Of a stretch of DNA of 37,297 nucleotides, positions 1 through 36,888 are shown piece after piece. Positions within the stretch are counted from its first letter, which is position 1. The number at the start of each line of letters is the position of its first letter. Below the pieces are notes generated by a model. That model did not search any database. It had not been told where the DNA came from and saw only the letters and a program-made list of their open reading frames with translations. This DNA is from a virus, in the IMG/VR virus record IMGVR_UViG_3300045534_000037, positions 1-37,297 of that record; one strand, written 5' to 3'. Both the position numbers and the translations under genes were made by a program.

Positions 1-250
1 CTGCGTATCCGTCTGCCGGACCGCGCTCTGGTGACTGACGGTGCCGCGCTGCAAACGCAAGACGACAACGAGCAATACACCACGCTGTCGGTTGCTTCTC
101 AAAAGCATATCGGCATCAACTTCACGTCCGCTGAACTCACCATGCAGTTGGACGATTTTGCCGACCGCGTGTTGAAACCTCGTATTAGCCAACTGGCGTC
201 TTCTATTGATGCTGATGTGGCGAACGCTTACAAGTTCATTGGGAACAGCG
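1..250 (+). repeat. terminal overlap, left copy
   Basis: Bases 1-250 match 37048-37297 except at 48 (G/T), 99 (T/G) and 123 (C/T). The overlap shows that the contig is circular or circularly permuted, with a unit of about 37,047 bp. Confidence 0.9.
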
Positions 251-1062
251 TGGGCACTCCCGGCACGACTCCCAGCACTTCGCTGGTGCTGCTGCAAGCT
301 CAGCAAAAGCTGAACGAAAACGCGGCTATCATGTCGCCCCGTTATGCCACCGTGAATCCGGCTGCTAACGCTGGCCTCGTGGAAGGCATGAAAGGTTTGT
401 TCAATCCCACCGACACCGTCAGCAAGCAGTTCAAGAATGGCATGATGGGCACCGGCGTGCTGGGCTTTGACGAAATCAACATGTCTCAGTCGATCAAACA
501 GCACACCACTGGCGATTGGGGCACTGGCATTTCGCTTGGCGCGTCTGTGACGACCGAAGGCGCTTCGTCCATCAGCATTTCTTTCACTGGCTCCAGCAAG
601 ACTTGGAAAGTGGGCGACGTATTCACTATCGCTGACGTGTATGCAGTCAATCCGCAGACCCGTGAATCGACTGGTTCGCTCCAGCAATTCGTGGTGACGG
701 AAGATCTGACCGCTTCCACTTCTGGCACGCTCAAGTTTTACCCGGCGCTGTACTCCTCGGCTCACGCTCTGGCTACCGTCAATGCGCTGCCTGTCAGCGG
801 CAAGACTGTGACCATGCTGGGTTCGGCCAACAGCCAATACGCGCAAAACCTTGTGTATCACAAAGATGCGATTACGTTTGCCACCGCTGACCTCCTCCTG
901 CCGCAAGGTGTGGATATGGCTTCGCGTGCTGTGCATAACGGCATCAGCCTGCGTGTTGTGCGTCAGTACGACATCAACAATGACCGTATGCCTTGCCGGG
1001 TTGATGTGCTGTATGGCTACAGCGTTATTCGTCCGCAGATGGCCGTTCGGATGTGGGGCTAA
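1..1062 (+). CDS. major capsid (coat) protein, P22 coat-like, C-terminal part
   Basis: The reading frame is open from base 1, so the gene enters from outside the window; its first 47 codons are at 36907-37047 at the other end. Joined across the ends, the protein is 400 residues, close to the about 430 of P22 gp5. Similarity to the P22 coat family is by recognition of the overall pattern: an N-terminal region with IGINFTSAELTMQLDDFADR, a central helical segment, a beta-rich insertion-like part around window codons 180-280, and the C-terminal SVIRPQMAVRMWG. The protein forms the icosahedral shell together with the scaffold encoded just upstream at 36109-36888. A methionine-like start at base 31 is an artefact of the cut. 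A strong stem-loop terminator follows. Confidence is high for coat protein and moderate for the exact family. Confidence 0.88.
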   Translation: MRIRLPDRALVTDGAALQTQDDNEQYTTLSVASQKHIGINFTSAELTMQLDDFADRVLKPRISQLASSIDADVANAYKFIGNSVGTPGTTPSTSLVLLQAQQKLNENAAIMSPRYATVNPAANAGLVEGMKGLFNPTDTVSKQFKNGMMGTGVLGFDEINMSQSIKQHTTGDWGTGISLGASVTTEGASSISISFTGSSKTWKVGDVFTIADVYAVNPQTRESTGSLQQFVVTEDLTASTSGTLKFYPALYSSAHALATVNALPVSGKTVTMLGSANSQYAQNLVYHKDAITFATADLLLPQGVDMASRAVHNGISLRVVRQYDINNDRMPCRVDVLYGYSVIRPQMAVRMWG

Positions 1063-2206: not shown

Positions 2207-2917
2207 ATGGCAACGGCTGGCGACATCATCAACGGTGCTTTGCGTCTGCTCGGTGTGCTGGCCGAAGGTGAAACGCCTTCTCCTGAAACATCTGCTGATG
2301 CGCTGTTTGCCATGAATCAGATGATTGATTCGTGGAACACTGAGCGTTTGTCTGTGTTTTCTACTCAAGACCAGACATTTACTTGGCCCGCAGGTGAAAT
2401 CACTCGCACTCTTGGCCCATCTGGGAATTTTGTCGGGAACCGACCAGTTCGGCTTGATGATGCCACGTACTACCGCGACCCTAGCACCAACGTATCCTTT
2501 GGTATTAAGTTCATCAATCAACAGCAATATGACGGCATCGCCGTTAAAACGGTCACTTCCACCTATCCGCAAGTGATCTTTGTCAATGAGACGTTTCCTG
2601 ACGTGACAATGACCATCTACCCAAAACCGACGCGTGTTTTGGAATGGCATTTCATCTCCGTCGAACCGCTTTCCCAGCCTGCAACATTGGCGACTGACCT
2701 AGCATTTCCTCCGGGCTATCTTCGAGCTTTCCGGTACAACCTTGCTTGTGAAATGGCCCCGGAGTTCGGCGTAGAGCCTTCTTTGCAAGTGAAACGAATT
2801 GCAATGGTGTCCAAGCGCAACATCAAGCGCATCAACAATCCTGACGACATCATGAGCCTGCCGTACTCGCTGGTAGCGACGCGTCAGCGGTTCAATGTGT
2901 ATGCGGGCAACTATTGA
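2207..2917 (+). CDS. tail accessory factor, P22 gp4-like (head completion)
   Basis: A 236-residue protein. The N-terminus (GDIINGALRLLGVLAEGE, then a helical MNQMIDSWN segment) has the pattern of the P22 gp4-type head-tail connector family that binds under the portal ring and seals packaged DNA. It is longer than P22 gp4 (166 residues), as seen in other family members. Order also supports it: coat, then this, then the gp10-like protein, as in P22. AAGGGG precedes the ATG. Assignment combines pattern recognition and synteny. Confidence 0.72.
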   Translation: MATAGDIINGALRLLGVLAEGETPSPETSADALFAMNQMIDSWNTERLSVFSTQDQTFTWPAGEITRTLGPSGNFVGNRPVRLDDATYYRDPSTNVSFGIKFINQQQYDGIAVKTVTSTYPQVIFVNETFPDVTMTIYPKPTRVLEWHFISVEPLSQPATLATDLAFPPGYLRAFRYNLACEMAPEFGVEPSLQVKRIAMVSKRNIKRINNPDDIMSLPYSLVATRQRFNVYAGNY

Positions 2918-3164: not shown

Positions 3165-4691
3165 ATGAAATCCCCAATCCTCGGCTCTAGCTATGTGGCC
3201 CGCAGCCCAAGTGCTGACGATAACCGCATGGTCAATCTGTTTCCAGAGATTGTGCCCGAGGGCGGCAAGGAAGCTGCGTTTCTGCAACGTGCGCCGGGGC
3301 TTCGTAAGCTGGCGTCTGTAGGAAATGGGCCGATTCGCGGGCTGTGGCAGTTTGGCGGATATGGATACGTTGTAAGCGGAAACGGCCTGTATCGTGTCAA
3401 TTCAAGCTGGGCAGCAACTTCTCTTGGCACTGTGTCTGGCACCGGCCCTGTATCCATGTCAGACAATGGCACACAGCTTTTTGTCGCCTGTAATGGCCCA
3501 AGTTACATTTACAATTCCTCCACTTCTGTTTTCCAACAGATCACCGACCCGGATTTTCCGGGCGCGGTTACGGTGGGGTATTTGGATGGGTACTTTGTAT
3601 TCAATGAGCCTAACAGCCAAAAAGTTTGGGTTACAGGTCTGCTTGAGGGTACTCAAGTGGATTCACTCGATTTTGCCAGTGCGGAAGGGTCGCCGGACGG
3701 ACTTGTCTCGCTGATTGTCGATCACCGCGAAGCATGGCTGTTTGGCACAAACTCGGTTGAAGTCTGGTATGACGCTGGCAATGCAGACTTCCCTTTAGCG
3801 AGAATCCAAGGCGCTTTTAATGAAATCGGGTGCGCTGCGCCGTATTCCGTTGCCAAGCTGGACAATGGCATCTTTTGGCTAGGATCTGACGCTCGAGGCA
3901 ATGGCATTGTTTATCGAGCCAACGGATACACCGGGCAGCGTGTCAGCACTCATGCTGTTGAATGGCAGATCCAGCAATACGCCAGCATTTCAGACGCGAT
4001 TGCCTACACCTATCAGCAAGACGGCCACGCTTTCTATGTGCTGATCTTTCCCACGGCAAACACCACATGGGTTTATGACGTAGCGACGCAAGCTTGGCAC
4101 GAACGCGCTGGGTTTATTGATGGGCAATTTACTCGCCACCGCAGCAATTGCCAAATGAACCTTGGCGGTGAAATTGTTGTCGGAGACTATGAGAACGGCA
4201 ACATCTACGCATTTGATCTGGATTTTTACTCAGACAATGGATCGCTGCAAAAGTGGCTGCGTTCGTGGCGAGCATTACCAACCGGGCAAAACAATCTTAA
4301 AAGAACGACGCACCACAGCTTGCAACTGGATTGCGAAGCTGGCGTTGGGTTAGATGGCAATGATGTATTTTCATTGCTTACTACACTAGACACCGAAAGC
4401 GGCAATACGCTACTAGCAGAAAACGGCGTAGATATTTTGGTGTCCGTTTCGACCGTTCAAGGAACCGATCCTCAGGTAATGCTTCGTTGGTCAGATGACG
4501 GCGGTTTTACTTGGAGCAATGAACATTGGCGCAGCATGGGCAAGATCGGTGAAAAAGGAAAACGCATCATCTGGCGCAGGCTTGGCATGACGCAAAAGCT
4601 GCGTGACAGGGTGTATGAGATTTCAGGCACTGATCCTGTAAAAATCACCATAGTGGGTGCAGAACTCATTTTGAGCGCCACCGATGCCTAG
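3165..4691 (+). CDS. tail accessory / DNA stabilisation protein, P22 gp10-like
   Basis: A 508-residue beta-rich protein. The N-terminus (SSYVARSPSADDNRMVNLFPE) and the repeated Gly-aromatic pattern (GLWQFGGYGYVVSGNGLYRV) match the packaged-DNA stabilisation protein family of P22 gp10 (472 residues), which forms a hexamer in the tail below gp4 and holds the needle and tailspikes. It follows the gp4-like gene as in P22. It overlaps the next gene by 8 bases. Confidence rests on family pattern and synteny together. Confidence 0.82.
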   Translation: MKSPILGSSYVARSPSADDNRMVNLFPEIVPEGGKEAAFLQRAPGLRKLASVGNGPIRGLWQFGGYGYVVSGNGLYRVNSSWAATSLGTVSGTGPVSMSDNGTQLFVACNGPSYIYNSSTSVFQQITDPDFPGAVTVGYLDGYFVFNEPNSQKVWVTGLLEGTQVDSLDFASAEGSPDGLVSLIVDHREAWLFGTNSVEVWYDAGNADFPLARIQGAFNEIGCAAPYSVAKLDNGIFWLGSDARGNGIVYRANGYTGQRVSTHAVEWQIQQYASISDAIAYTYQQDGHAFYVLIFPTANTTWVYDVATQAWHERAGFIDGQFTRHRSNCQMNLGGEIVVGDYENGNIYAFDLDFYSDNGSLQKWLRSWRALPTGQNNLKRTTHHSLQLDCEAGVGLDGNDVFSLLTTLDTESGNTLLAENGVDILVSVSTVQGTDPQVMLRWSDDGGFTWSNEHWRSMGKIGEKGKRIIWRRLGMTQKLRDRVYEISGTDPVKITIVGAELILSATDA

Positions 4692-5590: not shown

Positions 5591-6016
5591 ATGACAACTT
5601 TGACCCCTACCCCCAAGCAACAATTCCTTGATGCCAATGGCAATCCGCTATCAGGAGGCAAGGTTTACACTTACGCAGCCGGAACTACTACGCCACTGGT
5701 GACATACACCGACTCAAGCGGTTCAGTGCCTAACACCAACCCGGTGATTCTGGACAGCCGTGGCGAGGCTGCTATTTGGCTCGGGGTAGCATCGTACAAA
5801 CTTAAACTTACCACCTCTACTGATGTTGAAATCTGGACGGTGGATAACATCAGTGGCGCTAGTATTGCTGTTCAAAAAGGAGCAAGCGCCGGAAGGCCGA
5901 CACCAAGTGCAACAGATTACGGTGTTATGTATTTTGATACTACACTTGATGCCGATGGAAAACCTATTTGGTGGAATGGCACCGCGTGGGTTGATGCTAC
6001 TGGCGCAGTTGTTTAA
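5591..6016 (+). CDS. tailspike head-binding-type protein
   Basis: A 141-residue protein. Residues 9-75 follow the pattern FLDANGNPLSGGKVYTYAAG, then NTNPVILDSRGEAAIWLG, then IWTVDNISG, which is the recurring head-binding or tail-adapter motif of P22-type tailspikes and many podovirus tail proteins. The C-terminal part has a second common phage motif (YFDTTLDADGKPIWWNGTAW). I chose the ATG at 5591; an upstream in-frame start would lie inside the previous gene. It is too short for a complete spike, so it is an adapter or a spike anchor. The true spike is probably at 34477. Confidence 0.65.
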   Translation: MTTLTPTPKQQFLDANGNPLSGGKVYTYAAGTTTPLVTYTDSSGSVPNTNPVILDSRGEAAIWLGVASYKLKLTTSTDVEIWTVDNISGASIAVQKGASAGRPTPSATDYGVMYFDTTLDADGKPIWWNGTAWVDATGAVV

Positions 6017-6025
6017 GGAACCAAC

Positions 6026-6361
6026 ATGACCATTACCGTAAAAGTACTGATCCCGGCTAAGACTGCCGAAAACACGCAGACCACGCAATACACCGCGTCG
6101 GGGGTCACCACCATCATCGACAAATTCACCGCCACAAACTACAACACGGCAGCGGCGACGATTTCGGTCAATCTTGTCACCTCGGCGGATACGGCAGGCA
6201 ATCAGAACTTGATTGTCAAAACCAAGACGCTGCAACCTGCCGAGACTTACACTTTCCCTGAGCTGGTCGGGCAAGTGTTGATGGCTAGTGGGTTCATCAG
6301 CACGATTGCCGGGACTGCATCTGCAATCAACATTCGGGCTTCTGGGCGTGAAGTTAGCTGA
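6026..6361 (+). CDS. small phage structural-type protein, unknown function
   Basis: A 111-residue Thr/Ala-rich protein with predicted alternating beta strands (VTTIIDKFTATNYNTAAATI, then LVGQVLMASGFISTIAGTAS). The pattern resembles small virion proteins in podovirus tail clusters, but I cannot name the family. AAGGA stands 7 bases before the ATG. Its 3' end overlaps the start of the SET-domain gene by about 14 bases, so the two are translationally linked. Confidence 0.55.
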   Translation: MTITVKVLIPAKTAENTQTTQYTASGVTTIIDKFTATNYNTAAATISVNLVTSADTAGNQNLIVKTKTLQPAETYTFPELVGQVLMASGFISTIAGTASAINIRASGREVS

Positions 6362-7190
6362 GTTGAAATCAGCGGGGGCTTTGCTTACTAAAAAAGTTCA
6401 GGCGCTTGAAACTGAGCTATTGAAGTTGCCGCAAGCTGCAATTGTTACTGAACATGTTTTTAAGCCCGGAATCTACGAGCGGAAAATCATCATTCCAGCT
6501 TGGACAGTCTTGACTGGTGCGAAACACAAAACTGATTACAAAGTTCGATTGGAAAAAGGAACAATTGCCGTCAATACTGATGACGGCGTAAAAATTTTGA
6601 CTGCGCCGCTTGAATTTGAAGCAAAAGCCGGGATGCAGCGTGCAGGACGCGTGTTTGATCAAGAAGTTATTTGGGTTGATGTGTATGAAAATCCTGATAA
6701 CTGCACGAATCTTGCTGAACTTGAAGCAAAACTGTACGTGGTGCCGGAGTGCGGTCTTGCAGATAGCAGAACCGCAGTGCAAAAAGCAAGAATTGATTTC
6801 AACGCGTTTTTACATCAAACAGGACTGACGCAAGACGAAATGGATGCGCTAGTGCATATTGAATCTGATCTAATAGATATGCCGCCAAATGTTGATGTTG
6901 AACTGCGAGATTCAATGATTCATGGAAAAGGATTATTTGCTCTTCGTGATTTTAACGTAGGACAAATTGTTTGCCCTGGAAGGCTTAACGGCAAAAGAAC
7001 CCCCGGCGGCAGATTCATAAATCATTCGTGTTTTCCAAATGTTACGCCTAAAAAATTTGGCGACGACATTTATGCGGTGGCTATACGAAAGATTTACGCT
7101 GGTGATGAATTGTTGGTAAATTACAGAAAATCAATACAAGTAAACTTTGGCATTGTGCTACAAGGAGAACAATTATGTCAGGTTGGGTAG
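6348..7190 (+). CDS. cupin-like plus SET-domain protein, putative protein lysine methyltransferase
   Basis: With the chosen GTG start at 6348 the protein has 280 residues; a TTG at 6363 is an alternative, and the ATG at 6288 lies deep inside the previous gene. Residues 1-30 are helical. Residues 35-130 are beta-rich and resemble a double-stranded beta-helix (cupin-like) fold, without an obvious full metal-ligand set. Residues 184-262 form a short SET domain: HGKGLFAL (GxG cofactor loop), GRFINHSCFPNV (the NHSCxPN motif that binds S-adenosylmethionine) and AGDELLVNY (ExxxY end of the active site). The segment between GxG and NHS is only about 30 residues, much shorter than in typical SET enzymes. 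Substrate unknown. Neighbours are virion genes, so a virion or injected protein is plausible. Confidence 0.75.
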   Translation: MKLAELKSAGALLTKKVQALETELLKLPQAAIVTEHVFKPGIYERKIIIPAWTVLTGAKHKTDYKVRLEKGTIAVNTDDGVKILTAPLEFEAKAGMQRAGRVFDQEVIWVDVYENPDNCTNLAELEAKLYVVPECGLADSRTAVQKARIDFNAFLHQTGLTQDEMDALVHIESDLIDMPPNVDVELRDSMIHGKGLFALRDFNVGQIVCPGRLNGKRTPGGRFINHSCFPNVTPKKFGDDIYAVAIRKIYAGDELLVNYRKSIQVNFGIVLQGEQLCQVG

Positions 7191-7879
7191 CTGGAGCAGT
7201 TGTTGTTGGGTCTTTAATAGGTTCAGAGGCTTCTGAAGACGCAGCAGAAACTCAAGCGCAATCTGCGGAGAAAGCATCAAACCTTCAATATAGACAATTT
7301 AAGGAATCAATCGCTTTACAAGAGCCTTGGCGCAAAGCTGGCGAAGAAGCACTTAACAAACTTATTCCATTAGCATCCGAATATACGCCATTTGGAATGC
7401 GACAATTTCAACAAGACCCCGGTTATGCATTTAGAATGTCTGAGGGAATGAAGGCGCTTGATCGTACTGCGGCGGCTCGTGGTGGCTTGTTGTCTGGCGC
7501 TACGCTTAAGGGCGCGCAGCGTTTTGGGCAAGAGCTTGGAAGCCAAGAATATCAAAACGCTTTCAATCGTTATCAAGCAGAACGTACTGCACGCCTAAAT
7601 CCTTTGCAATCTTTGGCCGGAATTGGGCAAACAACGGCCCAACAAATTGCACAATCTGGGATGAATATGGCCCAAAATGTTGGGAACATTCAACAAGCAG
7701 GAGCGGCTGCAAGAGCTTCTGGTTATGTTGGGCAAGCAAATGCACTTACAGGCGCGTTAAATACGGGCTTAAACTATTATCAAAATCAAAACTTGATGAA
7801 CAGAATGTTCCCTCAAGCTGGTGGCGGCATGGGGCAATCTGATTTTTCTCGCGGTTGGACTCCTGAAAATTACGGTTAA
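7175..7879 (+). CDS. DNA ejection protein, P22 gp7-like
   Basis: A 234-residue protein. The N-terminus is hydrophobic (GWVAGAVVVGSLIGSEAS), followed by helical Gln/Ala-rich repeats (QQIAQSGMNMAQNVGNIQQA), the typical look of P22 gp7 and related ejection proteins that are packaged in the head and injected to form a channel across the envelope. AGGAG stands before the ATG, which overlaps the SET gene end by 16 bases. It is the first of three tandem ejection-type genes, as in P22 (7, 20, 16). Confidence 0.72.
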   Translation: MSGWVAGAVVVGSLIGSEASEDAAETQAQSAEKASNLQYRQFKESIALQEPWRKAGEEALNKLIPLASEYTPFGMRQFQQDPGYAFRMSEGMKALDRTAAARGGLLSGATLKGAQRFGQELGSQEYQNAFNRYQAERTARLNPLQSLAGIGQTTAQQIAQSGMNMAQNVGNIQQAGAAARASGYVGQANALTGALNTGLNYYQNQNLMNRMFPQAGGGMGQSDFSRGWTPENYG

Positions 7880-28238: not shown

Positions 28239-28382
28239 ATGCCTCTCAAAAAATCAGCCAGCAAAGCTGCCTTTTCCAAGAACGTAAAGACTGAAATGGC
28301 GCATGGCAAGCCGCAAAAGCAGGCAGTGGCGATTGCGTATTCGGTGCAGCGCAAAGCTGCGGCACCCAAAAAGGGCAAGTAA
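28239..28382 (+). CDS. 47-residue basic protein between terminase and portal
   Basis: A frame of 47 residues (MPLKKSASKAAFSKNVKTEM, then GKPQKQAVAIAYSVQRKA, ending KKGK). The ATG is the next base after the terminase stop and the TAA shares a base with the portal ATG. I recognise the KPQKQAVAIAYS pattern from other phages at this position. It may bind DNA or the portal; function unproven. Confidence 0.7.
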   Translation: MPLKKSASKAAFSKNVKTEMAHGKPQKQAVAIAYSVQRKAAAPKKGK

Positions 28383-30517
28383 TGGCAAAACGTGATGATG
28401 AGCTGCTATCTACCGCACGTGACCGCCTGAATCTGGCGATTTCGGCGTATTCGGAAAGTCGCGAGGACGAGCTGGACGATCTGCGCTTTTATGCAGGCAG
28501 CCCGGACAATCACTGGCAATGGCCAGCCGATGTGCTGGCGACTCGTGGCGCGGTGCAGGGGCAGACTATCAACGCGCGGCCTTGCCTCACCATCAACAAG
28601 CTACCGCAACACGTCAAGCAAGTCACCAACGATCAGCGCCAAAATCGTCCGTCCTGCAAGATTATCCCGGTGGATGATGTGGCCGACCCGGAAGTCGCCG
28701 AGATTTTCGACGGCATTGTTCGCCACATTGAATACATTTCAGACGCTGACGTTGCCTATGACACCGCTTGCGAAAATCAGGTGGCGTATGGCGAAGGCTA
28801 TATCCGCATCCTGACTGAGTATTGCGACGACGATACGTTTGACCAAGACATCAAGATTGGTCGCGTGCGGAATTCCTTTTCGGTTTATATGGATCCGCTG
28901 ATTCAAGATCCATGCGGGGCGGATGCTCGCTGGTGTTTTATCACCGAAGACATTAGCAAGGATGACTACGAGCGCATGTTTCCCGATGCTTCGCCCGTCA
29001 CCACCTTGCAGCAGATGGGCGTGGGCGATCAGTCCATCAATCAATGGCTGAATGAAAACACCATCCGCATTGCCGAATATTTTTACGTTGAGCATGAGCC
29101 AGCCACGCTGAACCTGTACTACGGCGGCGCTACTGCGTTTGAAGGCTCTCCTGAGGACAAGCAACTTAAAGCCAATGGCATGAAGCCGGTTAAGACCCGG
29201 CGCGTGGATCGTCGCAAAGTCAAATGGTGCAAGATCAATGGCTATGAAATTCTTGAAGAGCGCGATTGGGCGGGTAAATACATTCCTGTCGTGCGTGTGG
29301 TCGGAAATGAGTTTGAAGTTGATGGTCGTATTTATCTATCTGGCCTCGTGCGTAACGCAAAAGATGCACAGCGAATGTATAACTATTGGGTCAGTCAGGA
29401 AGCCGAAATGCTGGCCTTGGCCCCGAAAGCCCCGTTCATAGGCTACGGCGGGCAGTTTGAAGGGTACGAAACGCAGTGGAAGACGGCGAATACGCAGAAT
29501 TGGCCCTATTTGGAGGTCAATCCTGACGCTACAGACGGCTTAGGCAATCCGTTGCCATTGCCCCAGCGTGCAATGCCTCCGATGGCTCAGACGGGCTTGA
29601 TTCAAGCCAAAATCGGCGCGTCGGATGACATCAAGGCTACCACGGCGCAGTATGATGCCTCGCTTGGCATGGCGGGTAATGAGAAGTCAGGCAAAGCTAT
29701 TCTGGCTCGTGAGCGCCAGTCTGACACCGGCACATATCACTACGTTGATAACCTGGCTCGCGCGGTGCGTCATGTGGCTCGCCAGTTGGTGGATATGATC
29801 CCCAAGATTTACGACACCCAGCGCATCGCCCGGATTATTGGCATTGATGGCGAAGCTGACATGGCGATGATCGACCCGACCCAGCCTGAGCCGGTGAAAA
29901 AGATTGTCGATCAGCAAACCGGGGCGGTTATCAAGAAGATTTACAACCCCAGCGTGGGCAAATACGACGTGTGCGTAACCACTGGTCCGAGCTACATGAC
30001 CAAGCGCCAAGAGGCTGCCGAAAGCATGGCGCAAGTGCTGCAAGGCAATCCGCAGCTTTGGACGGTGGCGGGCGATTTGCTGGTGCAAAATCTTGACTGG
30101 CCGGGCGCTGATGAGCTTGCCAAGCGTCTCAAGAAGATGGTTGATCCCAAGCTGCTGCAAGACGAAAATGACATGCCGCCCGAGCTGATGGCCGCGCAGC
30201 AACAGATGCAGGCAATGGGGCAGGAGCTTGATCAACTACATCAAATGCTGCAAAACGTGTCGCAGTCTATGGAAGCGCGCGATTTGGAGATCAAAGAATT
30301 TGACGCCAAAGTGCGGGCATATCAGGCCGAAACGCAGCGCATCAGCGCAGTACAGGCCAGTATGTCGCCCGAACAGATTCAGGATATTGTCATGGGTACG
30401 GTGCATGGCATGATTACCTCTGGCGATTTGGTGGGCGAGATGCCGGGAAGCGAATTGCCGGGTGAAGATATGCAAGAAACGGGGCAACAACCTCAAGAAA
30501 TGGGGCAATTACAATGA
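28382..30517 (+). CDS. portal protein, P22 gp1-like
   Basis: A 711-residue protein, close to P22 gp1 (725). The N-terminus (SEDELDDLRFYAGSPDNHW-like region at residues 22-42), the QNRPSCKIIPVDD segment and the long C-terminal Gln/Met-rich helix (residues about 600-711) match the P22-type portal family, whose C-terminal barrel extends into the head. It forms the dodecameric DNA channel. It lies directly behind the large terminase. It overlaps the next gene as ATGA. Confidence 0.9.
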   Translation: MAKRDDELLSTARDRLNLAISAYSESREDELDDLRFYAGSPDNHWQWPADVLATRGAVQGQTINARPCLTINKLPQHVKQVTNDQRQNRPSCKIIPVDDVADPEVAEIFDGIVRHIEYISDADVAYDTACENQVAYGEGYIRILTEYCDDDTFDQDIKIGRVRNSFSVYMDPLIQDPCGADARWCFITEDISKDDYERMFPDASPVTTLQQMGVGDQSINQWLNENTIRIAEYFYVEHEPATLNLYYGGATAFEGSPEDKQLKANGMKPVKTRRVDRRKVKWCKINGYEILEERDWAGKYIPVVRVVGNEFEVDGRIYLSGLVRNAKDAQRMYNYWVSQEAEMLALAPKAPFIGYGGQFEGYETQWKTANTQNWPYLEVNPDATDGLGNPLPLPQRAMPPMAQTGLIQAKIGASDDIKATTAQYDASLGMAGNEKSGKAILARERQSDTGTYHYVDNLARAVRHVARQLVDMIPKIYDTQRIARIIGIDGEADMAMIDPTQPEPVKKIVDQQTGAVIKKIYNPSVGKYDVCVTTGPSYMTKRQEAAESMAQVLQGNPQLWTVAGDLLVQNLDWPGADELAKRLKKMVDPKLLQDENDMPPELMAAQQQMQAMGQELDQLHQMLQNVSQSMEARDLEIKEFDAKVRAYQAETQRISAVQASMSPEQIQDIVMGTVHGMITSGDLVGEMPGSELPGEDMQETGQQPQEMGQLQ

Positions 30518-31006: not shown

Positions 31007-33403
31007 ATGACCATCAGCGGGATAACCGCAAGCGTTGTAAACGGTGTGCAGGAGGTCGCGACGGCGCAGGGGGTCACCTCCGGCGCAATCACATCTGAGA
31101 GCGTCCTGATTCTGACGAGCGGCGCGATTCGCGCGAGCGGCACGGCGAATATCGTCATCGACCGTACAAACATTTTCGTAAACAATGCCGGCTCATTTAC
31201 TGCAGACCCATACTCTTCTGCGATCTCATTCAATGCAGACGGCCCGGAGAGATGGGTTACGAACAAAGCAATACGTTTTCGGCGTTCCAGCATCATCTAC
31301 AGAACCACGGAGCGACGCAATGTTTTCATTACGGAGTTGACAGACTCTAATGTGTTCGAGGTCAATAACACGTTGCAGCTTTTCGTTTATACGCCGCCGA
31401 CCGCGATTTTGGAAAATACGAAATTTGTAGGGATTAACACATGGGAGGTTGTTGGGACGCCGGCGCGCGCGGCTGGTCTCACGTTTGAAAACGTCGGCGC
31501 GGCCTTTTTCAACTATCAAGCCGGGCGTCTCGACTTTGTTAGGATTAACGTCACGTCGTTCGTAAACGCCTCCTGCTACATTGGCCTCGGATCGGCAAGC
31601 AACTCAGTTTGGAACTGGGACCCTGTAAGTTTCGACCGCACAAAAGTGTCTCGCGTGCTGGCTACGAATCTCTATTACGAGGGCGTGACAGCTTCTTGGG
31701 AGTTCCGAAACCGCGACACGCTCGCGGCCCTGCCGAACGTGTTGGTGATTTACCGAGACAATCGCTCTGGTTCTGTGGCCGAGCGCGGTCGCTATGTCAC
31801 GAATGCGAACGGCAGAATGGCGGGAACACACGACAGCCGGCTCGGAACCAATTCAACAAACACTGAGCGTCCGACACTGTTTTTGCTCCGGTATCAGATC
31901 GCCGACAACGCGACGACCGGGGCTTACTCAGCCCCGAGCCATGATGGTTCGGCAGGCCGCCGCTATGATCTGGTTACCGTGCAACCACGCATCGAAATCC
32001 GCTCGTATCTCCATGAAGCGCAGAGCAGTTTTGGACCAAGCAGCACTTATAGTGGGACCGCCAGTGCGGGAGTGATTAACGGCGATTACACGGTCGCTCA
32101 ATATTCGACGTTCCTTCTCCCCGCCGACGCCGCCGTCACACAGACGAACATGGCGACCGTAATGGGATATTCCAGCATCAACACACTCGACCAATTTTAT
32201 GATCGGGTGAAAGCGGAGTGGAGGACGTTCGACAATTATCCCTATGCGACCGCCTCCGGTTCGGTTATCAACCTCGGGGCCATTGATCTCGTTGTCAGCG
32301 CCACGGCGGCGAATGCGTACGCATTTTCCTCCTCAACGATCACCATAAAAAGCTCCGCGCTGACGGCTGGGTCGAAATTCTCGTCGATCCTCACCACTGG
32401 AACGATCTCGCTTCAGAACGGCGCGGCTGTTTCCGCTACGTTGACTGGCACAATCATTTTCGACAACGCTGGCGCATGGTCTCCGACGCTTGACAAAGCG
32501 ACCGTGCGCTTCACGGCGGCGGGCGAATACGATCTGCGCGGCGCCACGATCACGGGCACCCTTACCCTGACCAACACCAGCGGCGGAGCGGTGACTGTAA
32601 GGCTTGTGCCAGGGCTTACGATTGTAAATTCAGGACCGAATATCACCGTCGATCAGTCAGTTGCTGGCACAGGGTCAATTACCAACATTGTGTCCGGGTC
32701 TCGCATCCAGATTTACAACGTCACTACGGCCACGGAACTGGTGAATGCAATCGTAAGCGGCACGTCTTACACCTACAGCTACACGGTAGGCACACAAATA
32801 TCCAGCGGAAACACAATCCGCGTACGGCTTACGTATCAAAGCGGAGTCACCGCAAAAGCGCGGTTTGAGTCCTTGGCAGTGGCTGGGGCTACCGGGTTCT
32901 CAGTGCTCGCGCAACAAACCGACGATGAGGTTTACAACCTGATTGGCATAGACGGCTCCACGGCGACGGAATTTTCTGCGGATTATCCGAATGTCGAAGT
33001 CAATGTTTCTGACCCAGACAACTCGACCAGCGTTTTGCGCATGTATGCTTGGTGGGTATCAAACGAATTTACCGCTGACGGCATACGCCAATTTTTTGGC
33101 GGGATCGATGCTGATGACGCAGCAAACTTCAAAATTGTCACCTCGCGGGCAAGCATCAAAATAGACAACACCTCTAGTACAGGCGTGACTTTTACGGGCG
33201 ATATTCGTTTGTATCGTGACGATGGAGCCACTCCGCTTGTGGCATCTACCACCGGTGGGGGTTCGATTACGCTCTACGCTGGGAAAGTCTATACTGTGGA
33301 GACTGGCGTTTCTGGGCTTACCCCAGCAGAATCGGCAAAGTTGATGTCAATTCCTGACGCAACATCAAACGCCAACGCCGTTTGGGCTAAAGTTCTTCCA
33401 TGA
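31007..33403 (+). CDS. large beta-rich virion protein, putative tail fibre
   Basis: A 798-residue protein with no signal peptide. The first 450 residues are Ser/Thr/Asn-rich with predicted parallel strands (GAIRASGTANIVIDRTNIFV). Residues 460-600 show simple beta repeats (SGSVINLGAIDLVVSATA; LRGATITGTLTLTNTSGG). Residues 650-798 contain DGSTATEFSADYPNVEVNVS, IRQFFGGIDADD and a final DATSNANAVWAKVLP, a C-terminal layout I recognise from phage fibre proteins. Its base use is more GC-rich than the following genes. It lies where P22 has no gene, between portal and scaffold, and is likely part of a host-recognition block. Confidence 0.6.
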   Translation: MTISGITASVVNGVQEVATAQGVTSGAITSESVLILTSGAIRASGTANIVIDRTNIFVNNAGSFTADPYSSAISFNADGPERWVTNKAIRFRRSSIIYRTTERRNVFITELTDSNVFEVNNTLQLFVYTPPTAILENTKFVGINTWEVVGTPARAAGLTFENVGAAFFNYQAGRLDFVRINVTSFVNASCYIGLGSASNSVWNWDPVSFDRTKVSRVLATNLYYEGVTASWEFRNRDTLAALPNVLVIYRDNRSGSVAERGRYVTNANGRMAGTHDSRLGTNSTNTERPTLFLLRYQIADNATTGAYSAPSHDGSAGRRYDLVTVQPRIEIRSYLHEAQSSFGPSSTYSGTASAGVINGDYTVAQYSTFLLPADAAVTQTNMATVMGYSSINTLDQFYDRVKAEWRTFDNYPYATASGSVINLGAIDLVVSATAANAYAFSSSTITIKSSALTAGSKFSSILTTGTISLQNGAAVSATLTGTIIFDNAGAWSPTLDKATVRFTAAGEYDLRGATITGTLTLTNTSGGAVTVRLVPGLTIVNSGPNITVDQSVAGTGSITNIVSGSRIQIYNVTTATELVNAIVSGTSYTYSYTVGTQISSGNTIRVRLTYQSGVTAKARFESLAVAGATGFSVLAQQTDDEVYNLIGIDGSTATEFSADYPNVEVNVSDPDNSTSVLRMYAWWVSNEFTADGIRQFFGGIDADDAANFKIVTSRASIKIDNTSSTGVTFTGDIRLYRDDGATPLVASTTGGGSITLYAGKVYTVETGVSGLTPAESAKLMSIPDATSNANAVWAKVLP

Positions 33404-34476: not shown

Positions 34477-36048
34477 ATGGCCGGCACAAAAATTTCCGAA
34501 TTGCCCGTTGCAACTTTGCCACTTGCTGGCACTGAACTTGTGCCGGTTGTGCAGAGTGGGGCGACTAAGCAAACCACGCTTGCTGCCATGCCTTATGTGC
34601 CTGCGGGCACTGGAGCGGTTACGACTACCGTTCAGGCCAAGCTGCGTGAGTCCGTGTCTGTTAAGGATTTTGGTGCTAAAGGCGATGGCGTTACGGATGA
34701 TACTGCGGCGATTCAGGCGGCTATTGATTCTGGCAAACCTGTATTTGTCCCGACAGGAACTTACTATCTTGCTACATCGTTAAAAGTTGAAAATGGAAAT
34801 GTGATTTATGGAGTAAATGGTAGAGGAGCTGGTTATTCTTTTGAAACAACAGGATCGTATTTCAAGCCTGCTACTTGTGCTATACAGACAAAAGATTACA
34901 CACACCAATATAGTAATTTTACTTTGCACAATATTGGGTTTCTTGGCGGAACAATACAAGTTGATTTAGGATTGTTTCACGAAGTTGATATTACAGATTG
35001 TTGGTTTGTAAATCCTTCTGTTGGGTGCCTTGTTATTGTTCGCGGCGAAAAACAGCGCATTGAGCGCGTCAGATGCGATAGTAATGGCACAGGTGCTGCA
35101 ATTTTCGGTTTTTCGTTAGGACGTTGGGAAGAATCGCTTTATAACGGGTATAGCAACGCATATTTTGCTCCCGGCGGCGCATTTTTTGACCGCGCATCGA
35201 TCAAAGACGTAGCCATGCAATCTGGCGTAGGCTCTTCGTGTTTTGCCTACGGAATAAAAAGTAACATTTTGTCGGGTGCCGTTATCTCTAATTTTATTGT
35301 TCATGGCATTCAAGATGCCAGAGAACAAAATGTCATCTACATTAGAGATAGAATTCAACAATCTCAAATTATTGGATGCTCACCGGATACTTTTGGAAAT
35401 GCTTCATCCCCCGCACCGGCTATTTTTGAGTTTCAACAAGTCAAACAATGCACGTTTCTAAACGTAAGCCCTGCTTTTTCCGGGAACAACAACTACGTTA
35501 AAGGAATTACGGCAACCAGCGGATTTTTTGGTGCGACATTTACATCTTGCCGTGTAGGCGGCAATAACTCTACATACTACGGATTTTACATTCCTGTTTG
35601 GGTAGGGCAAGACGCCGTACTAATTGATTGCGACGGCGCATATTTTAGCGCCAGTGCTAACACGTTAATTAAAAGTCAAATAACTCAAATTAGCTGTAGA
35701 TTTGACTACAACAACGGTTTTAATTCATCTTCCGTTATTCAAAATAATCAAAATAAATATGATTTGATGATGGCAGATTTTAACGGAGCCGTCTCCTGCA
35801 CTTCTAGTTGGGGTGTTTTATTTGCTAAAGGAAGTGGAAATTTTGCAGTTCCTTTTTCTGTGCAAAACGACAGAATTTCTTTAAACGGTCAAAGTGTTCT
35901 ATATGCGTCGGCCGCCCCTACCACTGGCACGTGGAGTCGTGGTGACATTGTGTATAACACTGCGCCAGCATCAGCCGGATATGTTGGGTGGGTCTGCACT
36001 GCGGCTGGAACCCCCGGAACGTGGAAAGCATTTGGCTTAATTACTTGA
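34477..36048 (+). CDS. tailspike with pectate-lyase-like beta-helix, putative depolymerase
   Basis: A 523-residue protein. Residues 1-45 (MAGTKISELPVATLPLAGTE) are a recurring phage attachment segment. Residues 60-85 contain VKDFGAKGDGVTDDTAAIQA, the entry of the pectate lyase 3 type right-handed beta-helix. The helix continues to about residue 460, and the C-terminus has APTTGTWSRGDIVYN and GWVCTAAGTPGTWKAFG, a common end domain. Such spikes bind and often cleave host capsule or O-antigen. Catalytic residues cannot be assigned from sequence alone. It immediately precedes the scaffold. Confidence 0.82.
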   Translation: MAGTKISELPVATLPLAGTELVPVVQSGATKQTTLAAMPYVPAGTGAVTTTVQAKLRESVSVKDFGAKGDGVTDDTAAIQAAIDSGKPVFVPTGTYYLATSLKVENGNVIYGVNGRGAGYSFETTGSYFKPATCAIQTKDYTHQYSNFTLHNIGFLGGTIQVDLGLFHEVDITDCWFVNPSVGCLVIVRGEKQRIERVRCDSNGTGAAIFGFSLGRWEESLYNGYSNAYFAPGGAFFDRASIKDVAMQSGVGSSCFAYGIKSNILSGAVISNFIVHGIQDAREQNVIYIRDRIQQSQIIGCSPDTFGNASSPAPAIFEFQQVKQCTFLNVSPAFSGNNNYVKGITATSGFFGATFTSCRVGGNNSTYYGFYIPVWVGQDAVLIDCDGAYFSASANTLIKSQITQISCRFDYNNGFNSSSVIQNNQNKYDLMMADFNGAVSCTSSWGVLFAKGSGNFAVPFSVQNDRISLNGQSVLYASAAPTTGTWSRGDIVYNTAPASAGYVGWVCTAAGTPGTWKAFGLIT

Positions 36049-36108: not shown

Positions 36109-36888
36109 ATGAATGAAGAAGTACAAATAGCGGAAGTGCCCGCGCCGGAACAGGTTGAGACGGCATCGCCTGAACCCGAAGTTTCATCGCCGGAAGTTGT
36201 CGAAGCGGCACCCAAGACCTTCACACAAGAAGAATTAGATGCGGCTATCGGCAAAAGGCTCGCAAGAGAGCAAAGGAAATGGGAACGAGAGCAACAGCGT
36301 AAGGCTGAGGAAGCGCAAGCCGTAAGGTCTGCACCTCCTGCCGATCTTCCTCCTGTCGAACAGTTTGAAAGCCCCGAAGCTTATGCGGAAGCATTGGCGT
36401 ATCGTAAGGCCGAAGAATTGCTCGCACAGCGTGAGCAGGCTAAACAGCAAGCCGCTATGCTTGAAGGCTATCAGGAGCGTGAAGAGCAAGCTCGGGACAA
36501 ATACGAGGACTTTGAACAAGTCGCGTATAACCCAAATTTGCGAATTACAAACGTGATGGCAGAAACGATTCAGGCTTCTGAAATTGGCCCCGATGTGGCG
36601 TATTACCTCGGCATCAACCCTAAAGAAGCTGATCGTATTTCCCGCCTGTCGCCATTCTTGCAAGCTAAGGAAATCGGGAAGATTGAGGCTAAACTGTCCG
36701 ATAATCCGCCCGCGAAGAAAACAACCAGTGCTCCGGCTCCGATTGCGCCCGTCACTGCCCGCACTTCTGGTGCGCCTGCGTATGACACCACCGATCCTCG
36801 CTCAATCAAAACCATGAGCGTTTCGGACTGGATTGAAGCAGAACGGCAAAGGCAAATTCGGAAATGGGAAGCACAACGCAACCGCTAA
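36109..36888 (+). CDS. scaffolding protein
   Basis: A 259-residue protein with an acidic Pro/Glu N-terminus (EVPAPEQVETASPEPEVSSP), a long charged coiled coil (about residues 40-130; REQRKWEREQQRKAEEAQAV), a central helical part and a basic C-terminus (RQRQIRKWEAQRNR). Basic helical C-termini bind coat protein in P22 gp8. It lies 18 bases before the coat gene, as in P22. AGGAATC precedes the ATG. The 60 bases before it hold no gene. Confidence 0.82.
   Translation: MNEEVQIAEVPAPEQVETASPEPEVSSPEVVEAAPKTFTQEELDAAIGKRLAREQRKWEREQQRKAEEAQAVRSAPPADLPPVEQFESPEAYAEALAYRKAEELLAQREQAKQQAAMLEGYQEREEQARDKYEDFEQVAYNPNLRITNVMAETIQASEIGPDVAYYLGINPKEADRISRLSPFLQAKEIGKIEAKLSDNPPAKKTTSAPAPIAPVTARTSGAPAYDTTDPRSIKTMSVSDWIEAERQRQIRKWEAQRNR

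Follow-up and report, generated by a model that had tools for sequence, protein, structure and literature searches.

To our knowledge, SET enzymes have been studied almost solely as eukaryotic chromatin modifiers. The MLL/KMT2-type SET methyltransferases (PDB 7u5v, 7w6j) share with the phage domain described here the SET core and the GxG, RFxNHSxxPN and E-L-x-x-D/N-Y motifs. Unlike them, the phage domain has neither the post-SET nor a stretch of about 40 residues comprising SET-I and adjacent strands, and it is fused to a cupin, with no histone context. The vSET protein of chlorella virus PBCV-1 (PDB 1n3j, 3kma), an H3K27 methyltransferase of 119 aa, is a viral minimal SET without post-SET. 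It matches the phage domain at 2.5 Å over 81 residues with 26% identity (profile E=6.9e-8), but is free-standing, belongs to a virus of a eukaryote and has a longer GxG-NHS stretch. In phages, the same short SET with RTPxG..xNHS is found in PHROG 28741 and the mini-SETs of P-RSM6, P-SSM7 and Kolga, which differ in having no linker or cupin and in belonging to T4-like and other phages, where their gene neighbours vary. The same cupin, in the same slot before a gp7-like gene, is found in PHROGs 12032 and 24280 (Shewanella X14, Thalassomonas BA3 and Vibrio podophages), whose proteins end after the cupin, without SET. PHROG 34170, of which the protein studied here is a member, is given no function or domain description in PHROGs. 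A description of a cupin-SET protein was not found in the open-access text of the literature on phage SET proteins. The SET fold and motifs, the phage SET database records and the PHROG membership are already known, and the descriptions of the cupin-linker-SET architecture, the exact gained or lost unit, the natural pairs with and without SET, the separated forms and the link to marine mini-SETs are new.

The analysed stretch of DNA (the window) comprises positions 1 to 37,297 of the IMG/VR virus record IMGVR_UViG_3300045534_000037. It is a P22-type podovirus genome in which the coat, adaptor, gp10-like, cupin-SET and gp7-like genes follow in order. The genes around the cupin-SET gene are:

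31..1062, + strand: P22-like coat protein (PF11651, E=1.5e-33)
2207..2917, + strand: head-tail adaptor, Ad3-like, in the P22 gp4 position (PHROG 637, E=2.9e-10, first 49 aa)
3165..4691, + strand: P22 gp10-like head-closure gene, Hc3 (PHROG 578, E=1e-137)
7175..7879, + strand: gp7-like DNA ejection gene (PHROG 598, E=1.4e-46)

The location between tail and ejection genes, given in the initial annotation, was confirmed by the gp4- and gp10-like genes upstream and the gp7-like gene downstream. The downstream gene belonged to one similarity component (gp7-like) in 228 of the 241 fetched loci, and the upstream gene was variable. The start of the cupin-SET ORF shares 14 nt with the preceding ORF, and the start and ribosome-binding site of the gp7-like gene are nested inside the 3′ end of the cupin-SET gene, whose last codons (7160-7190) contain both. 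This overlap may account for a conserved C-terminal peptide, which is also present in SET-less forms. A small ORF upstream (5627-6016) has a C-terminal match to phrog_20787 and phrog_29706 (virion structural protein and tail-spike profiles). The region from the portal gene (28382-30517) to the scaffold gene (36109-36888) contains a tail-spike-like gene (34477-36048) and an ORF of 798 aa without PHROG match (31007-33403), an unusual location compared with P22.

The gene and the parts of its product are:

6348..7190, + strand: cupin-SET protein gene (ORF, 280 aa, GTG start)
6354..6419, + strand: N-terminal helix, aa 3-24 (AlphaFold model)
6435..6746, + strand: cupin barrel, aa 30-133 (PHROGs 12032 and 24280, predicted fold)
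6759..6875, + strand: helical linker, aa 138-176, with D150, F/Y151 and D174, co-inherited with SET
6876..7148, + strand: mini-SET domain, aa 177-267 (Pfam SET match, predicted fold)
6924..6932, + strand: GxG motif, G193-K194-G195 (conservation)
6996..7031, + strand: RTPxGR[FY]xNHS motif, with R217-T218, G221-R222-F223 and N225-H226-S-C (conservation)
7107..7124, + strand: terminal ExxxxY motif, E254 to Y259, the putative catalytic Tyr (conservation)
6783..7166, + strand: block present or absent among sister phages, approximate (homology to L287 4393-4779, inexact boundaries)

One motif scan of IMG/VR yielded 499 stretches, of which 498 were relatives; counts from further IMG/VR motif scans are lower bounds, and the fetched sequences form 84 clusters. 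Among annotated phages, full-length homologues are carried by zth2-2, Rhodoferax phage P26218 and Pseudoalteromonas phage PH1, and also by Manatee Spring contigs, one of which is labelled after the PBCV-1 histone methyltransferase. In bacterial genomes, the contigs with homologues bear labels such as Burkholderiales, Paraburkholderia and Rhodocyclales. The PHROG 34170 profile (296 aa) spans both cupin and SET of the window protein (E=7e-37). Among the fetched loci, fusion of SET to the cupin beside ejection genes greatly outnumbers the other forms, and this fusion is old (84 clusters). A SET core one third smaller than usual is widespread in podoviruses, within the tail/ejection gene cluster.

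The SET domain was identified by profile, sequence and structure comparisons. PF00856 matched the window protein with E=1.1e-10 (42.3 bits against a curated cut-off of 22.4) and 78 of 79 diverse homologues at E<=0.01, and MLL1 was the top match in PDB sequence searches with the window protein. The full-length model (AlphaFold, 79 homologues in the alignment) had a pLDDT of 92.5 and showed helix 3-24, followed by the cupin barrel, two further helices (143-158 and 162-169) and SET. In the SET core, pLDDT was >95 and the GxG, NHS and terminal Tyr segments were in register; the predicted SET part superposed on human MLL1 with Z 10.7 and 1.6-1.7 Å over 78 residues at 38% identity. Modelled alone, the linker helices and SET reached pLDDT 91.9 and retrieved, among the matches listed, SET proteins only. 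The GxG, NHxxxPN and ExxxxY residues are present across the 84 clusters, in 99-100% of which S189, G193, G195, N225, H226, N231, E254 and Y259 are kept. The distance from G193 to N225 was 32 residues in 83 of the 83 clusters measured. The proposal, first made from the letters alone, of a cupin-like domain joined to a minimal SET with intact NHSCxPN, GxG and terminal Tyr motifs and about 30 residues between GxG and NHS is therefore borne out, including the SET fold that structure prediction was to check. The proposed length of about 80 residues holds for the SET core; the conserved unit extends beyond it and also includes about 40 residues of the preceding helices (aa 138-176), where D150, the aromatic residue 151 and D174 are nearly invariant.

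The mini-SET is about 40 residues shorter than the aligned MLL1 span, and the missing residues correspond to the SET-I region. In known SET enzymes, SET-I helps to build the cofactor and lysine sites. No conserved aromatic residue replacing the SET-I tyrosines was found within the SET core in the cluster alignment: the conserved aromatics there are F197, F/Y223 and Y259 only, and of the usual active-site tyrosines Y259 alone is certain. The post-SET cysteine cluster was not seen in the phage protein. The conserved positive residues of the core are R212, R217 and R222, and the segment standing in for SET-I contains R212 (97% conserved) and R217 and T218 (both 100%). As R217, T218, G221, R222 and N225 belonged to the homologue search pattern, their invariance is partly selected. 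The absence of SET-I aromatics together with the invariant Arg212 and Arg217 leaves more than one chemistry possible for the putative enzyme. One such chemistry would be that of an active SET-type enzyme in which Arg212, Arg217 and Thr218 form a positive site for an acidic group or nucleotide rather than lysine. The position of these residues and the occurrence of RTPxG in both the podovirus family and the cyanophage mini-SETs are consistent with such a substrate, but R217-T218 invariance in the podoviruses is affected by the search pattern, and the Arg residues may have a structural role or take part in SAM binding; we regard this explanation as improbable. A broader proposal is that of a phage-specific mini-SET family which works without SET-I, is completed by its own N-terminal helices (D150, aromatic 151, D174) and the Arg-Thr segment, and acts on ejection proteins of the phage or on proteins of the host, perhaps at residues other than lysine. 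This proposal is on the doubtful side; if true, these SET enzymes would form a class of their own and would be a rare example of phages having integrated protein methylation into assembly or entry.

The cupin part resembles known cupins in its predicted fold (Foldseek E ~1e-5, VIA Z ~10.5), and the Pfam cupin match is marginal for single members. The window protein matched the PHROG 12032 profile with E=1.4e-22. The His/Glu metal-binding motif of cupins is not conserved in the alignments, where the usual His positions differ among clades, with Tyr at the second one in the window protein, and a metal-dependent cupin enzyme was rejected for this reason. The names of PHROGs 12032 and 24280 are short tail fiber protein and tail fiber adhesin, and the family bears short-tail-fibre names in annotated phages too; this tail-fibre label is a database annotation, and virion proteomics or a structure showing the cupin protein as a fibre was not found in the open-access papers examined. 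The cupin is also found without SET in the slot before the gp7-like gene; what stays constant in the tail/ejection gene cluster is therefore the cupin and not the SET.

We tentatively favour, with confidence a little short of even, a reading in which the protein belongs to the morphogenesis cluster of P22-type podoviruses, has the cupin barrel as its constant part, and carries an optional linker and mini-SET (~129 aa) that act as a SAM-dependent protein methyltransferase docked on the tail/ejection machinery. We infer SAM binding, catalysis, the substrate and the docking role of the cupin as follows. The protein would be expressed late, along with the gp7-like ejection protein, and its cupin would anchor it to the tail/ejection assembly. 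In the SET core, SAM would be bound by the GxG loop together with segment N225-H226, and Y259 would lie at the active site. The methyl group would go to a neighbouring virion or ejection protein, where lysine is the simplest candidate for the modified residue. Methylation may then tune assembly, stability or host entry. The docked methyltransferase is favoured by the retention of the terminal Tyr and of the residues on the cofactor side, by the rigid spacing, and by the conserved fusion and position. Against it stand the missing SET-I, the loss of SET without loss of the cupin, and the location of SET near replication genes in three prophages. If the enzyme is active, it would reveal how small a working SET can be, and that proteins are methylated by phages as they assemble or enter the host. 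When the gp7-like proteins of phages with and without SET were compared crudely, no clear substrate lysine was found; K93 and K112 were commoner in phages with SET (73% vs 30-40%), in a crude comparison of small related samples.

Short relatives of the window protein stop after the cupin, without SET. The clade of the window itself includes SET-less proteins, whose cupins share 67-75% identity with the window cupin. In the clearest case, the sister loci L287 and L291, 387 bp (129 aa, linker and SET) are swapped for 18 bp, and the flanking DNA is 93-95% identical upstream and 85% downstream. The gained or lost unit is therefore the helices plus SET, ~129 aa. On the cupin tree (108 representatives), SET presence changes 11 times in all and at least 7 times on well-supported branches; the tree has few columns and many forks are unresolved. 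In locus L272 (3824-4537), an intact cupin is followed by a decayed SET remnant with an internal deletion. Because of this remnant and the wide presence of SET, repeated loss is favoured over gain. No DNA repeats were seen by eye at the domain boundaries in the sister-pair junctions or in the window, and excision via such repeats was rejected. The idea that SET-less phages keep the SET elsewhere was also rejected, with no match in the L278 and L280 records (34-35 kb) or in L297 (13.8 kb fragment). As SET has been lost repeatedly while the cupin stays, it is not needed for assembly; that close relatives have gained or lost it again and again points to an optional tool for modifying proteins, and sister phages with and without SET provide a natural experiment. 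The cultured carriers, Rhodoferax phage P26218 and Pseudoalteromonas phage PH1, make the question testable.

Within the window clade, dN/dS was 0.10 (SET), 0.16 (linker) and 0.07 (cupin), all rough values because most pairs are near synonymous saturation. These ratios indicate that SET is under purifying selection. A dispensable yet constrained SET would be typical of an accessory function that pays under some conditions only. Receptor-binding domains usually diversify fast, and the selection on SET is unlike theirs. This bears on the explanation that the SET fold has been kept as a beta-clip domain that does not methylate but has a structural role or binds a ligand; it could, for instance, mediate oligomerisation or lie on the surface of a short tail fibre. 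The lack of SET-I and its aromatics, with Y259 as the sole certain active-site tyrosine, and the short-tail-fibre name of the carrier in PHROGs are in line with a non-catalytic domain, as is the C-terminal domain swapping, which is typical of tail fibres (PMC10386132). However, the invariant cofactor-side residues and Y259, the spacing that never varies, the purifying selection and the existence of SET outside any tail protein argue against it, and we consider a non-catalytic domain quite unlikely.

SET modules outside the fusion were found in two settings:

L249:7093-8540, L253:7749-8315 and L255:7869-8426: separate SET-module genes, betaproteobacterial contigs
L260:5974-6273, L261:5968-6276 and L262:5980-6279, also L302-L381: free-standing mini-SETs of 100 aa, cyanophages and pelagiphage

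In the first setting, three prophages encode SET as a separate gene beside replication genes. On the Paraburkholderia ferrariae contig (L249), separate neighbouring genes encode cupin and SET and adjoin a DnaB-like helicase gene, and in L253 and L255 a linker-SET gene lies near primase, helicase or SSB genes. The cupin of the window family had no match in these last two draft genomes. Some of the separate genes carry extra C-terminal sequence. In the second setting, cyanophages P-RSM6 and P-SSM7 and Pelagibacter phage Kolga encode mini-SETs of ~100 aa sharing RTPxG..xNHS, and 444 relatives of these marine mini-SETs were found in a scan of viral contigs. Profile-profile comparison of the window-family SET with the marine mini-SETs (PHROG 28741) gave 98.9% and E=1.6e-17 over 79 columns. 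The mini-SET of P-RSM6 adjoins a gp25-like baseplate gene, and that of P-SSM7 adjoins nrdA/nrdB.

The free SET genes beside replication genes weaken the candidate role of SET as a tail-only structural part. A virion-tied role, suggested in the initial annotation, agrees with the position in the tail/ejection cluster, but the SET is dispensable and portable and also occurs apart from the cupin or free-standing. As it is dispensable, lies beside replication genes and is free in marine phages, a function in the podovirus virion only is not the sole good reading. The mini-SET is accessory and portable, probably a SAM-dependent methyltransferase, rather than a required tail part. Such an enzyme could be host-directed or serve counter-defence. 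Delivered alongside the ejection proteins or synthesised in the cell, it would methylate a protein of the host, e.g. one of the nucleoid or of a defence system, and the cupin fusion would be only one way of deployment. Its repeated gain or loss among close relatives, the separate genes beside primase, helicase and SSB genes in the three prophages, and the free-standing mini-SETs in T4-like cyanophages and a pelagiphage fit this explanation, which accounts for the portability of SET as well as, or better than, the docked methyltransferase. Set against it is the old fusion to the cupin next to ejection genes, the commonest form among fetched loci, and we hold host-directed activity to be unlikely, though not by far.

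The slot of the cupin-SET gene, between the tail genes and the first ejection gene, is held in P22 by gene 14 and in T7 by gene 13. P22 gp14 (DUF2824) and T7 gp13 have no detectable homology to the cupin-SET protein, and the cupin profile scored 5.6 bits only against P22 gp14. The cupin family was present in 10 of 10 cupin phages and not in P22 or T7. DUF2824 and phrog_308 had no match in the window genome; among the cupin phages tested, DUF2824 was not found and the T7 gp13 family was found in one (G011). The slot is thus common to cupin-SET and to P22 gp14/T7 gp13, and both of the latter families are absent from most cupin phages. That cupin-SET replaces the GNAT-like P22 gp14/T7 gp13 as an alternative modifying enzyme is only a lead, because G011 carries both and the GNAT character is one sub-threshold Pfam hit. 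In locus L102 (5418-5975), a T7 gp13-family gene (phrog_308) with a weak GNAT acetyltransferase match lies directly upstream of the cupin-SET gene.
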